From an uncultured Eubacteriales bacterium (GTDB lineage Bacteria; Bacillota; Clostridia; Christensenellales; Aristaeellaceae), in assembly GCA_900315585.1 (NCBI GenBank), contig OMZP01000003.1, forward strand, positions 1 to 64,000: a stretch of 64,000 nucleotides of DNA, given 5' to 3'. The notes beneath the pieces are model-generated. The model was not told the origin of the DNA. It worked only from the letters and a program-made list of their open reading frames with translations, and made no database searches. The position numbers and the translations under genes were made by a program. The number at the start of each line of letters is the position of its first letter. The stretch's first letter is position 1. This document shows, in pieces, positions 10,027-13,897 of the stretch.

Positions 10027-10848
10027 TTATTCGATGACGCCGCCCTCGACGACCAGGTTGTCGGGATCGACGGCGTCGCCGTAGACCTCCTTCAGGGTCG
10101 CCTCATAGTCGGCGTGGAAGAAGTTCTCGGCGGCCAGGGCCTCGATCTCCTCGTTGATATAGGCCAGGACGGTGTCGTTGCCCTTCTGCACGGCGGGGGC
10201 GATGGTGTCCAGGCTGCCGAGGCTCTCGATGCCCACGGTGAAGCCGGGGTTCTCGATGGCCCAGGCCAGCACCTCGGTGTTGTCGGTGGACAGGGCATCG
10301 CCGCGGCCGTCCAGCAGGGCGTTGAAGGTCTCGGTGTAGGTGTCGAACTTCAGCAGGTTCACGTCCGGCTCGTTGGCGGTGAACCAGGTCTCGGCGGTGG
10401 TGCCCTTGGAGACGATCAGGGTCTTGCCCCGCAGGCCTTCGATGTCGGTGATCAGCGCGGCGTCCGGGCTGACCACGCCCAGGGCTACCTTCATGTAGGG
10501 CAGGGCGAAGTCCACGACCTCGGCGCGCTCCGGGGTGACGGTGAAGTTGGCCAGGATGATGTCCACCTTGGCGCTGGTCAGGTATTCCACGCGGTTCGGC
10601 GCGTCCACGCTCACCAGCTCCAGCTCCACGCCCAGGTCCTCCGCCAGGCGGCGGGCGAAGTAGACATCGTAGCCCTGGTATTCGCCGGTCTCGTCCACAT
10701 AGCCGAAGGGCTTCTTGTCGCTGAACACGCCGATGGTCAGCGTGCCGCTCTCCTTGATCTCGTCCAGGGTGCGGGCCTTGGCGTCGGCAAAGGCCGCGGG
10801 AATCAGGGCAATGGCCAGAACCAGAATCAGCGCAAACAGTTTCTTCAT
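10027..10848 (-). CDS. Polar amino-acid ABC transporter substrate-binding protein (probably cyst(e)ine)
   Basis: The 273-residue protein has an N-terminal export signal (hydrophobic stretch, AFADA) and the family-3 solute-binding fold: TLTIGVFSDKKPFGYVDETG, GYDVYFARRLAEDLG, VDIILANFTVTPERAEVVDF and a TTAETWF hinge region. It would capture a polar amino acid outside the cell for the membrane parts encoded upstream on the same strand. FTVTPERA and the SDKKPFGYVD start resemble cystine/cysteine binders of the TcyA/PEB1 group. The Cys-rich leader ORF in front (10973-11044) independently points to cyst(e)ine. It has its own promoter, so it can be made in excess over the membrane subunits. Confidence 0.85.
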   Translation of the reverse strand: MKKLFALILVLAIALIPAAFADAKARTLDEIKESGTLTIGVFSDKKPFGYVDETGEYQGYDVYFARRLAEDLGVELELVSVDAPNRVEYLTSAKVDIILANFTVTPERAEVVDFALPYMKVALGVVSPDAALITDIEGLRGKTLIVSKGTTAETWFTANEPDVNLLKFDTYTETFNALLDGRGDALSTDNTEVLAWAIENPGFTVGIESLGSLDTIAPAVQKGNDTVLAYINEEIEALAAENFFHADYEATLKEVYGDAVDPDNLVVEGGVIE

Positions 10849-10890
10849 GATGATCTCTCCTTCTTATTTGGTCGTTTGGATTATATATAA

Positions 10891-10939
10891 ACAGGCGGAA
10901 CGGAATGAACGCTTGCGTCGTCCATTCCGCTCCGCCTGT
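10891..10939 (-). terminator. Attenuator-type hairpin before the binding-protein gene
   Basis: On the minus strand, ACAGGCGGA plus CGGAATG pair with CATTCCG plus TCCGCCTGT (one internal mismatch), followed by an A/T-rich TTTATATATAAT tract. It lies between the leader ORF and the binding-protein start, where a leader-controlled terminator would be. Confidence 0.6.
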
Positions 10940-10972
10940 ATATATCCTTGGCCGCGTCAGAGCACGGGAAGT

Positions 10973-11044
10973 TCACCGGCAGGGCATCGGGCGACGCTGA
11001 CGGCACATACAACACATGTTCTCAACGCGGAAGCTGCGCATCAT
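10973..11044 (-). CDS. Cys-rich leader peptide (23 codons) before the ABC binding protein
   Basis: The ORF MMRSFRVENMCCMCRQRRPM ending PCR starts at ATG 11044, behind AAGGAGGG (11052-11059) at ideal spacing, and about 45 bp after a perfect promoter. It has adjacent Cys codons TGT TGT (11009-11014), a third TGC at 11003-11005 and a fourth near its end. CCGCGT (11025-11030 complement) and ACGCGG (10952-10957 complement) can pair around the Cys codons, and a terminator-like hairpin follows at 10891-10939. This is the design of a translation-coupled attenuator that senses charged tRNA-Cys. The second leader (13469-13540) has the same length and layout. Function is inferred, not shown. Confidence 0.72.
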   Translation of the reverse strand: MMRSFRVENMCCMCRQRRPMPCR

Positions 11045-11089: not shown

Positions 11090-11118
11090 ATTATATGCGC
11101 CCGGGGGCGGGTTGTCAA
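11090..11118 (-). promoter_or_regulatory. Promoter for the leader and binding-protein unit
   Basis: Minus strand: TTGACA (11113-11118), 17 bp, TATAAT (11090-11095), a consensus sigma-A promoter. Its spacer (starting ACCCGCCCCC) resembles that of the promoter at 13566-13594. Confidence 0.88.
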
Positions 11119-11142: not shown

Positions 11143-11892
11143 TCAGCGCACGGCGTCAAATTCAAAGGTATTCAGGAACTGCTGAGCGCGCTCGGTCTGG
11201 GGGTGGTGGAAGAACTGTTTCGGCGGGGCCTCCTCCAGCACCAGCCCGCCCTCCAGGAACAGCACCCGATCGGCCACGGCCTCGGCGAAGCGCATCTCGT
11301 GGGTGACGATCAGCATGGTCATGCCCTCGCGGGCCAGGTCCAGCACCACGTTCAAGACCTCCCGCACCATCTCCGGGTCCAGGGCGGCGGTGATCTCGTC
11401 CAGCAGCAAAAGCCGCGGGTGCATCAGCATCGCCCGCACCAGGGCCACGCGCTGCTTCTGGCCGCCGGAGAGCTGCCGGGGCAGGGACTTCGCCTTCTCC
11501 GCCAGGCCCACCCGGGCCAGCGCCTGCTCCGCCTCGGCCTCCACCTCCGGCTTCGGCCGCTTCAGCGCCTGCACCGGGCCCAGCGTCAGGTTGCCCAGCA
11601 CGTCCATGTGGGGGAACAGGTCGTAGCTCTGGAACACCATGCCCACCTGGCGGCGCACCTGCACCAGGTCCGCGCCGGTGTCGATGCGCTGCCCGTCCAG
11701 CAGGATCTCGCCGCCGTCCGGGCGCTCCAGGCCGTTGATGCACCGCAGCAGCGTGCTCTTGCCGCAGCCGCTGGGGCCCACCACCACGATGACCTCGCCC
11801 TCCTTCATGGCAAAGGATACGTCCTTCAACACGCCGTTGGCGTCGAAGTTTTTGCTGAGATGTCGGACCTCTAAGATTGGTTTATCACTCAT
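11143..11892 (-). CDS. Polar amino-acid ABC transporter ATP-binding protein
   Basis: The 249-residue ATPase shows Walker A GPSGCGKST, Q-loop FQSYDLFPH, signature LSGGQKQRVALVRAM, Walker B LLLLDEITAALDP and the switch His in VTHEMRFA. Length and motifs match the GlnQ/TcyC class that powers import of polar amino acids. It is the third gene of the minus-strand unit that begins with the two permeases. A heptamer array fills the 156 bp between the second permease and this gene, and a fresh promoter for the binding protein lies right after its stop. Family assignment is firm; the substrate follows from context only. Confidence 0.92.
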   Translation of the reverse strand: MSDKPILEVRHLSKNFDANGVLKDVSFAMKEGEVIVVVGPSGCGKSTLLRCINGLERPDGGEILLDGQRIDTGADLVQVRRQVGMVFQSYDLFPHMDVLGNLTLGPVQALKRPKPEVEAEAEQALARVGLAEKAKSLPRQLSGGQKQRVALVRAMLMHPRLLLLDEITAALDPEMVREVLNVVLDLAREGMTMLIVTHEMRFAEAVADRVLFLEGGLVLEEAPPKQFFHHPQTERAQQFLNTFEFDAVR

Positions 11893-12048: not shown

Positions 12049-12717
12049 TTATGCCCACCGCTTTTCCAGCCTTCCGGCCACCAGGGAGATCGGCCAGCAG
12101 GCGAGGAAGTAGAGGAAGAACACCACGGCGTAGATCCAGACCGCGGCCTGGGGGGCATCGTAGCGGGCGGCGTCGATGATCTGGCTGCCCACCTTCAGCA
12201 CCTCCACCACGCCGATCAGCATCACCAGCGAGGTGGTCTTGATCATGCGGGTGGCCAGGTTGATGGCCTGGGGCACCAGCCGCCTTGCCGCCTGGGGCAG
12301 CAGCACGAACCGCCAGCACTGGCCGCGGGTGAGGCCCAGGGCGGCGCTGCTCTCCCGCTGGTGGACGGGGATGGAGGTGATGGCGCCGCGCACCAGATCG
12401 CCCATCTCCCCCGCGCCCCAGAAGGTGAACACGGCCACCGCCGCCGTCTCGCCGGAGATCTGGATGTTGAAGGCCTTGGCTAGGCCGAAGTAGACCAGGA
12501 ACAGCAGCACCAGCTGGGGCACGATGCGCACCGTCTCCAGCCAGAGCCGGAAGAAGGCCCGCACGACGGGGTTTTTCAGTGTCATCAGCGCGCCGACGAT
12601 CAGCCCCAGGGCCACGGACAGCGCCACCGACAGCAGCGACAACTTCAGCGTCACGCCCAGGCCGCCCAGCAGCCGCGCCAGGTTATTGCCCTTGAACAGA
12701 ACCGCCAAATCCTGCAT
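12049..12717 (-). CDS. Polar amino-acid ABC transporter permease
   Basis: The 222-residue membrane protein belongs to the HisM/GlnP-type permeases: several hydrophobic helices and the cytoplasmic EAA loop, seen as ESSAALGLTRGQCWRFVLLP, that docks on the ATPase. It overlaps the preceding permease gene by 35 bp, indicating translational coupling and a heterodimeric channel. Start ATG 12717 follows directly from the overlap. No truncation is visible. Gene order permease-permease-ATPase-binding protein is common for such importers, although here the binding protein is separately controlled. Confidence 0.9.
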   Translation of the reverse strand: MQDLAVLFKGNNLARLLGGLGVTLKLSLLSVALSVALGLIVGALMTLKNPVVRAFFRLWLETVRIVPQLVLLFLVYFGLAKAFNIQISGETAAVAVFTFWGAGEMGDLVRGAITSIPVHQRESSAALGLTRGQCWRFVLLPQAARRLVPQAINLATRMIKTTSLVMLIGVVEVLKVGSQIIDAARYDAPQAAVWIYAVVFFLYFLACWPISLVAGRLEKRWA

Positions 12718-13357
12718 AGCGCAGCCTCCTTTCCCAGAGCGAGAACGCGATGGAGACGGGCAGCAGCAGCGTCAGGTAGGCCACCGTCAGCATCAGCAGC
12801 GCCTCGTCGGTCTTGTAGTACATGCCGATCAGATCCTTGGCCACGTACATCAGATCCGCCAGGGCTACGGCGCTGAACACGCTGGTCTCCTTGATCAGGA
12901 AGATGGCGTTGGCGCCGATGGCCGGGACGGCCGTGGCCAGCGCCTGGGGCAGGATCACGAACCGCATGTTTTGCAGGGGCGTCAGCCCGATGCACATGCC
13001 GGATTCCGTCTGGGCCCGGTCCACCGCCTCCAGGCCGCTGCGCAGCGCCTCGGCCATGTAGGCCCCGCCCAGGAAGGTGAGCCCCGTGATGGCGCAGGCC
13101 TCCGCGCTCAGCTTCACGCCCACCTTCGGCAGGCCGAAGTAGAGGAAGAACAGCTGCACCAGCAGCGGGGTGTTCCGCGCCAGCTCGATGTAGGCGGAAG
13201 CGATCTGCTTCAGCACCGGCACCCTGTACCAGCGCGCCAGGCAGCACAGCGCCCCCACCGCCAGCGACAGCAGTATGCCGATGGCGCCGATGCGCAGCGT
13301 CAGGCCCGCCGCCTTCACGTACATGGGCGTGAAACGCTGGATGAAGTCCATGTCCAT
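12683..13357 (-). CDS. Polar amino-acid ABC transporter permease (first gene of the unit)
   Basis: The 224-residue protein is a second HisM/GlnP-type permease. IELARNTPLLVQLFFLYFGLP is the typical second-helix signature, and TESGMCIGLTPLQNMRFVILP is the EAA loop. It would pair with the 12049-12717 product. ATG 13357 is used, behind GAAGGGA; an in-frame ATG six bases later is possible. A consensus promoter, a Cys-containing leader ORF and a terminator lie upstream (13415-13594), suggesting the whole operon is attenuated. The C-terminal 12 codons overlap the next gene in another frame. Confidence 0.9.
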   Translation of the reverse strand: MDMDFIQRFTPMYVKAAGLTLRIGAIGILLSLAVGALCCLARWYRVPVLKQIASAYIELARNTPLLVQLFFLYFGLPKVGVKLSAEACAITGLTFLGGAYMAEALRSGLEAVDRAQTESGMCIGLTPLQNMRFVILPQALATAVPAIGANAIFLIKETSVFSAVALADLMYVAKDLIGMYYKTDEALLMLTVAYLTLLLPVSIAFSLWERRLRYAGFGGSVQGQ

Positions 13358-13414: not shown

Positions 13415-13442
13415 AAAAAACAGCGGCCCGCCTGGGCCGCTG
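13415..13442 (-). terminator. Attenuator terminator before the permease operon
   Basis: Minus strand: CAGCGGCCC (13442-13434 side) pairs with GGGCCGCTG (13429-13421 side) over 9 bp with a 4-base loop, followed by TTTTTT. It lies between the leader stop and the first permease. The segment GCGGCCCGC inside the leader ORF is complementary to the descending arm GCGGGCCGC, an alternative pairing that would block it. Confidence 0.82.
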
Positions 13443-13468
13443 TTGCATGCTTCGTGGGTGGGGCGGCG

Positions 13469-13540
13469 TCAGGACACGGCAAAGCGGGCCGCGCGACAAC
13501 ACGCCGCCTTGTACAGGCGCGCTTCGGACCGGATCGCCAT
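13469..13540 (-). CDS. Cys-Cys leader peptide (23 codons) before the permease operon
   Basis: The ORF MAIRSEARLYKAACCRAARF ending AVS starts at ATG 13540 with GGGAGGTG seven bases upstream, about 25 bp after a perfect promoter. Adjacent TGT TGT codons (13496-13501) stand in the middle. GGCGGCGT just before them and ACGCCGCC just after the stop can form an 8-bp hairpin that encloses the Cys codons, and a 9-bp terminator with six T follows. It is as long as the leader at 10973-11044. I infer ribosome-mediated attenuation by cysteine supply; which structure wins at low cysteine cannot be decided by eye. Confidence 0.75.
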   Translation of the reverse strand: MAIRSEARLYKAACCRAARFAVS

Positions 13541-13565
13541 GCGAACACCTCCCTTTACGGTAGTT

Positions 13566-13594
13566 AGTATAGCGTGGGGGGCGGGTTTTGTCAA
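13566..13594 (-). promoter_or_regulatory. Promoter for the leader and permease operon
   Basis: Minus strand: TTGACA (13589-13594), 17 bp, TATACT (13566-13571). The start of transcription would lie only about 20 bp before the leader ATG. Confidence 0.88.
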
Positions 13595-13659: not shown

Positions 13660-13897
13660 CGCGCGGCTGACCGTAGGGACAGCATTCATGCTGTCCGCAA
13701 AGCGAGCGCCCCGCGCTCAGCTGCGCCTGTTACGGCATAGGCGCGTGGCCGTACGGAAGGACCTCATCCGACCTCGCTCCGCTCGGCCACCTTCCCCATA
13801 GGGGAAGGCTTTTGGAGTTGCGGCAATCGCAGGGGGAGACAGCGAGCGCCTTCGCTCGGCGGACGCCATGAATGGCGTCCCTACGGCCGCACAACGA
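13660..13897. repeat. Palindromes and inverted CCTTCCCC element
   Basis: GGACAGCAT/ATGCTGTCC with the CCGTAGG flank (about 13671-13699), a short CTTCCCCATAGGGGAAG element (about 13752-13815) and GGACGCCAT/ATGGCGTCC with CTACGG (about 13859-13886). No gene is seen between 13595 and 14011. Confidence 0.75.

Follow-up and report, generated by a model that had tools for sequence, protein, structure and literature searches.

T-box riboswitches and repressors are the usual explanation for amino-acid control in Firmicutes. Leader peptides were stressed as unusual in this phylum in a 2010 survey, according to which the histidine leaders of bacilli, located before hisS/hisZ, were the only ones known outside the Proteobacteria and Actinobacteria (PMC2965389). 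For cysteine, the Cys-codon leader uORFC-8-2 lies before cysS in Rhodobacterales, and ribosome-mediated attenuation by Cys-tRNA has been proposed for it (PMC8632094); that case concerns Alphaproteobacteria, a single gene (encoding cysteinyl-tRNA synthetase) and one leader. As the earlier note on this DNA had mentioned, Cys leaders are also known in Actinobacteria, where they precede cys genes and are without conserved terminators (PMC1262725), and mycobacterial cysteine leaders act by translational attenuation (PMC13236596).

The locus described here lies in the window, by which we mean the whole 64,000-nucleotide stretch of DNA analysed, from an uncultured rumen bacterium of the class Clostridia. 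It resembles the uORFC-8-2 motif in its short ORF, its two tandem Cys codons within the first stem and its intrinsic terminator, but differs from it in belonging to Clostridia, in preceding an importer operon, in having two leaders, each served by a promoter of its own, and in the other sulfur genes involved; the downstream gene is a permease or a binding protein, not the cysS of Rhodobacterales. With the mycobacterial and actinobacterial leaders it shares Cys-run ORFs preceding cysteine genes, whereas the ribosome site and terminator set it apart. Canestrari in 2020, as cited in PMC13236596, reportedly described mycobacterial polycysteine uORFs, said in the title to be leaderless, that is, without a 5' UTR or ribosome site; here 25 nt lie between the -10 element of promoter 1 and the ATG of leader 1 and include the ribosome site GGGAGG. 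The His leader of bacilli differs in its amino acid, and the classical trp and his attenuators share with our locus a control-codon run, predicted mutually exclusive 1:2, 2:3 and 3:4 pairings and a terminator.

There is a likeness to T-boxes as well, which sense tRNA and control termination in Firmicutes. Neither a T-box (RF00230) nor any other Rfam element reached its gathering score in the window or in 13 further loci. Outside the window, the same genome contains 13 T-box matches (L149-L161; five over the cut-off), mostly before aminoacyl-tRNA synthetase genes as read from the proteins, so the lineage is not without tRNA-sensing alternatives; the locus would be a case of cysteine control by leader peptide in Clostridia that use T-boxes too. 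The mechanism is known, and its clostridial occurrence and twin arrangement appear to be undescribed: in agreement with the earlier note, our search of the literature outside subscription journals found neither a clostridial Cys leader nor a twin arrangement.

Two leaders in one importer operon

The operon is read from the minus strand in the order leader 1, two ABC permeases, ATPase and family-3 binding protein (Table 1). Much of what the earlier note had seen in leader 1 was borne out, namely a 23-codon ORF with a ribosome site and a promoter about 25 bp upstream, adjacent TGT TGT codons, and a hairpin option enclosing them, formed by GCGGCGU and ACGCCGC (13469..13463). The terminator and its six T are likewise present, with a stem of 11 bp, not the 9 bp given there, and a folding energy of -21.9 kcal/mol; its ascending arm is segment 3 and its descending arm segment 4. 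ACGCCGC has two alternative partners, the GCGGCGU before the Cys codons and the terminator's ascending arm, and the predicted antiterminator joins (CCUG)AcGCCGC at the end of the ORF with GCGGCcCAGG of the ascending arm and loop. Because the segment that closes the Cys-codon hairpin doubles as the antiterminator strand, the predicted pairings have the classical 1:2 / 2:3 / 3:4 layout. A different antiterminator, GCGGCCCGC paired with the descending arm, had been put forward in the earlier note; this sequence is not kept in relatives, and we replaced it with the conserved ORF-end segment paired with the ascending arm.

Table 1. Features of the probable cysteine-transporter operon and its two leaders in the window
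Feature	Position	Strand	Details and basis
Promoter 1	13566..13594	-	TTGACA 13594..13589, 17-nt spacer, TATACT 13571..13566; aligned and kept in relatives
Leader 1 ribosome-binding site GGGAGG	13548..13553	-	Sequence; conserved
Leader ORF 1	13469..13540	-	MAIRSEARLYKAACCRAARFAVS and stop; 23 codons; ATG 13540; tandem Cys codons TGT TGT 13501..13496
Leader 1 segment 1 (GCGGCGU)	13501..13507	-	Predicted partner of segment 2 if ribosome-free; duplex -14.5 kcal/mol
Leader 1 segment 2 / antiterminator strand	13463..13473	-	CCUGACGCCGC; predicted pairing with the ascending arm of the terminator, -15.1 kcal/mol
Intrinsic terminator 1	13415..13444	-	11-bp stem AACAGCGGCCC/GGGCCGCTGTT, loop AGGC, then T6; kept in relatives
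ABC permease 1, polar amino acid, 3-TM HEQRo type	12683..13357	-	NCBIfam TIGR01726, Pfam PF00528
ABC permease 2	12049..12717	-	Domain matches
ABC ATPase, GlnQ/TcyN-like	11143..11892	-	Domain matches
Promoter 2	11090..11118	-	TTGACA 11118..11113, 17-nt spacer, TATAAT 11095..11090; hexamers invariant in 16 aligned sequences
Leader ORF 2	10973..11044	-	MMRSFRVENMCCMCRQRRPMPCR and stop; tandem Cys codons 11014..11009
Terminator-like hairpin 2	10885..10945	-	-43 kcal/mol; weak U-tract TTTATATAT after
Substrate-binding protein, related to L-cysteine receptors 1xt8 and 2yjp	10027..10848	-	Homology

The second leader, another Cys-Cys ORF that the earlier note does not mention, was discovered by a pattern scan of the window's own genome. 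It runs from TTGACA-N17-TATAAT through AAAGGAGGG, the ORF MMRSFRVENMCCMCRQRRPMPCR with its stop and a long hairpin to the binding-protein gene, and its predicted antiterminator starts about 18 nt past the first base of the leading Cys codon. The U-tract behind the hairpin is T5-T6 in one subgroup of the genus and only TTTATATAT in the window's subgroup, where termination may for this reason be weaker.

We propose, with a probability of roughly 0.87, that the two leaders belong to ribosome-mediated (trp-type) attenuators of transcription which together adjust one L-cysteine ABC importer, and that both most likely sense cysteinyl-tRNA. When cysteinyl-tRNA is plentiful, the ribosome would pass the Cys codons to the leader stop and cover the antiterminator strand, allowing the terminator to form. 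When it is scarce, we infer that the ribosome translating the leader would stall on the Cys codons, covering segment 1 and leaving the antiterminator strand available for pairing with the terminator's ascending arm, so that RNA polymerase would read through. Leader 1 would gate the whole operon, and leader 2, with its own promoter, would gate the binding protein separately, probably because the latter is needed in excess. Such a natural attenuator pair within one operon would offer a test case for how a cell sets binding-protein excess.

A repeat of about 25-30 bp (around GTAGGGACAGCATTCATGCTGTCC) also occurs in the region; it has 18 copies in the genome, those in the window lying at 13668..13700, 438, 9631 and 35372.

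Conservation within the genus and in distant loci

Alignment of the regions upstream of the operon in relatives, which the earlier note had suggested as a check, drew on a permease search in which close orthologues turned up in 16 genomes, counting the window's own. In 14 of these, promoter, ribosome site, ATG, TGT TGY and terminator are kept and the peptide drifts. A model of the leader built on sequence alone (R1) matched 16 genus genomes (E <= 1e-17), of which two were absent from the permease set; with these two and a further operon from the named collection (L079, in which leader 2 lies where it does in G042), the operon-bearing genomes number 19, and leader 1 is present with promoter, start, Cys-Cys codons and terminator in 16. 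The model gave one strong copy per genome and so no leader-1 family elsewhere. Relatives that keep the operon and lack the ORF, which the earlier note had held would count against its reading, do exist (3/19), but in each of them another gene now sits directly before the permease, which accounts for the absence: a MetY gene in G021, and in G022 and G042 a gene ending 42 nt upstream. Two of the three still have leader 2, and the contig of the third is without the binding-protein gene. Leader 2 itself was matched in all 18 genus genomes in which that stretch is assembled (E <= 1e-23), including two without leader 1 (L074 and L079); in the named set it was found in 17 near relatives, L085 and L088 being more remote cases.

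This pattern bears on whether the ORFs might instead encode functional small Cys-rich peptides, such as metal or thiol binders, with hairpins that merely end the transcripts. The tail of leader 2 (CCMCRQRRPMPCR) is well conserved, as such a role would predict, but changes within it preserve pairing with the terminator arm. Leader 1 peptides (MAFATEMRVNTAACCCAARFAMS, MAVRRTYVEYAYDCCRMAGFAMPVRR and MLKHIARWGACCRGRG are examples) differ in length and sequence apart from the CC, and the CGCCG downstream of the Cys codons does not vary among 14 genus leaders, even in L017 and L022, where the ORF has already ended, which points to selection on the RNA. Together with the shared Cys runs of otherwise dissimilar distant leaders and the position of the arrangement before sulfur genes (both below), these observations make a peptide function very unlikely in our judgement, and attenuation remains the reading that we prefer.

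To look beyond the genus, 80 named loci were collected, and codon runs were counted in the 65 from L084 on (L084 and L091 belong to the genus), a leader being a uORF with a ribosome site and a Cys run at most 350 nt from the permease and dinucleotide shuffles serving as control. CC leaders precede the permease in 13 of the 65 loci (shuffle mean 0.75, maximum 3) and CCC leaders in eight (mean 0.05, maximum 1); for other amino acids in the same loci, pairs never exceeded seven and triples never exceeded one. About three quarters of the distant loci scanned had no Cys-Cys leader. Cys-run leaders before the permease were found at 12 loci outside the genus, as in MTFRSNRNMNTCCCCCCCMACHRASLMCVEFHPGR (Lachnospiraceae, L144), MHMTAYRMIHNTCSNACCCCCEKSSASLCCAHCLL (Solobacterium, L104) and MSAMTMHGNCCCTCCVRFLPPVSLSLQ (Duodenibacillus, L133).

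The Cys runs are the sole common feature of the distant peptides, and the first Cys pair falls anywhere from codon 5 to codon 30. This is hard to reconcile with stalling in response to some other signal (nascent-chain arrest, an antibiotic, copper or oxidative stress) in place of low cysteinyl-tRNA. The Arg-rich and Cys-rich tails behind the Cys pair could be read in that sense, and uORFs that sense translation inhibitors are known (PMC12121999), but the regulated genes import or make cysteine, and we consider a signal other than cysteinyl-tRNA very improbable.

Alternative pairings and ribosome position

RNAalifold applied to a MAFFT alignment gave a poor consensus, the terminator arms being misaligned between subgroups. 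In a ribosome-position scan, the RNA downstream of the ribosome was folded codon by codon up to the terminator loop, and sequestration of the ascending arm was measured. For leader 1 an early ribosome gave a genus mean of 5.9 kcal/mol, one at the Cys codons 8.6 and one at the end 4.3 (5.0, 6.8 and 4.0 in the window); for the distant leaders the values in this order were 8.7, 9.9 and 3.1 kcal/mol. The arm is more sequestered with the ribosome at the Cys codons than at the ORF end in 15/16 genus copies of leader 1, 17/18 of leader 2 and 11/12 distant leaders; in leader 2 the maximum coincides with a ribosome on or beside the Cys codons in 16 of 18 cases, against 2.8 expected (mean z 2.5). Taken by itself, leader 1 of the window has an antiterminator no stronger than in dinucleotide shuffles (z -0.7), so its support is comparative; four distant leaders do stand out from their shuffles (z 3.1 to 4.2).

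Antiterminator and terminator strands from the same leader form better pairings than swapped strands do among the 12 distant leaders (p=0.0004), in leader 2 (p=0.0096) and in leader 1 within the genus (p=0.016). These p-values come from rank tests and overstate independence, the genus members being mutually related; nearly all of these members are metagenome assemblies. At identical offsets, TA/CG, GC/AT and CG/TA alternatives occur in the antiterminator helix of leader 2, in pairs taken from predicted folds and thus biased towards pairing. Co-variation in these predicted helices supports the antiterminator, and with the conservation it upholds the earlier note's central proposal of a Cys leader and attenuator on an amino-acid permease operon.

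The same pairings weigh against translational attenuation, in which a stalled ribosome would free the ribosome site of the downstream gene without preventing termination. Mycobacterial cysteine genes are described in these terms (PMC13236596), but here a stem-plus-T-tract terminator lies behind nearly every leader examined (a strict search missed those of L091 and L100, both of which are visible by eye), and the antiterminator is predicted to pair with the terminator's ascending arm; we rate this mode as less probable still than the two alternatives above. The features expected of trp-type attenuation can be read from the aligned DNA: both leaders have a short ORF with a ribosome site downstream of a promoter, the control-codon run is kept while the peptide varies, and an intrinsic terminator precedes the structural gene, with a weak U-tract at terminator 2 in the window. 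By computation, the availability of the antiterminator depends on ribosome position at the control codons, the window's leader 1 alone not being significant, and the regulated genes handle the same amino acid, as receptor homology and neighbouring sulfur genes indicate.

In L081, L082, L085 and L088, an extra mini-ORF with a ribosome site lies between the leader 2 terminator and the binding-protein gene, and that of L088 again contains Cys-Cys (MPRRMPYHDFNRCCAGRRIAYSPIDG).

Substrate and sulfur-gene context

The closest solved relatives of the operon's binding protein are 1xt8 (E 8e-83), which we take to be CjaA/Cj0982 of Campylobacter, and 2yjp (E 2e-79); the E value of the next one is 5e-34, and that of 2yln, the cystine receptor of the gonococcus, 6e-15. 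CjaA binds cysteine (PMC4178425), and 2yjp is the L-cysteine receptor NGO2014 (PMC7170509). Cysteine as the substrate, which the earlier note had drawn from the leader, is therefore independently supported, since the closest solved relatives are L-cysteine receptors. Cys leaders may in this way give substrates for unassigned importers straight from DNA.

Operon neighbours in relatives include a PatB C-S lyase, a cystathionine lyase or MetY. In the family's other genera, reached through model matches, candidate Cys leaders lie upstream of the orthologous binding protein (L221, L222), a MetQ-like protein (L226), MetN (L224) and MetY (L227). Elsewhere in the class, where a scan for runs of four Cys codons was dominated by Leu/Ala frames and a few in-frame cases were taken further, MKYMCCCCMSITRAMDNCCLNMIRCN lies upstream of cystathionine lyase and CysK (L192) and MIMPFHTQIMCCCC... 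upstream of nitrogenase-like genes (L196). We lean towards the view that a sulfur regulon of Clostridia is controlled by leader attenuators with Cys codons, sometimes together with Met codons, which lie upstream of importers, MetY, cystathionine lyase-CysK, MetN/MetQ and a nitrogenase-like cluster, and that the doubled version sets membrane complex and binding protein separately.

At L196 (231-3228), a CCCC leader and a terminator-like stem precede NifE/NifD-like and BchB-like genes, a possible nitrogenase-like sulfur-salvage reductase. Met and Cys codons are mixed in the leaders before MetN (L224:1574, plus strand, MTCMMMRMSM...) and MetQ (L226:1534, minus strand, MPMEMCMRRMCMLCC...), which perhaps sense both amino acids. 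In L112 (8181-9848), a single protein combining a family-3 amino-acid binding domain with a MetQ/NlpA domain is encoded downstream of the cysteine permease genes, with MetN and MetI behind it; several Lachnospiraceae loci have proteins of about 550 aa in the same position.
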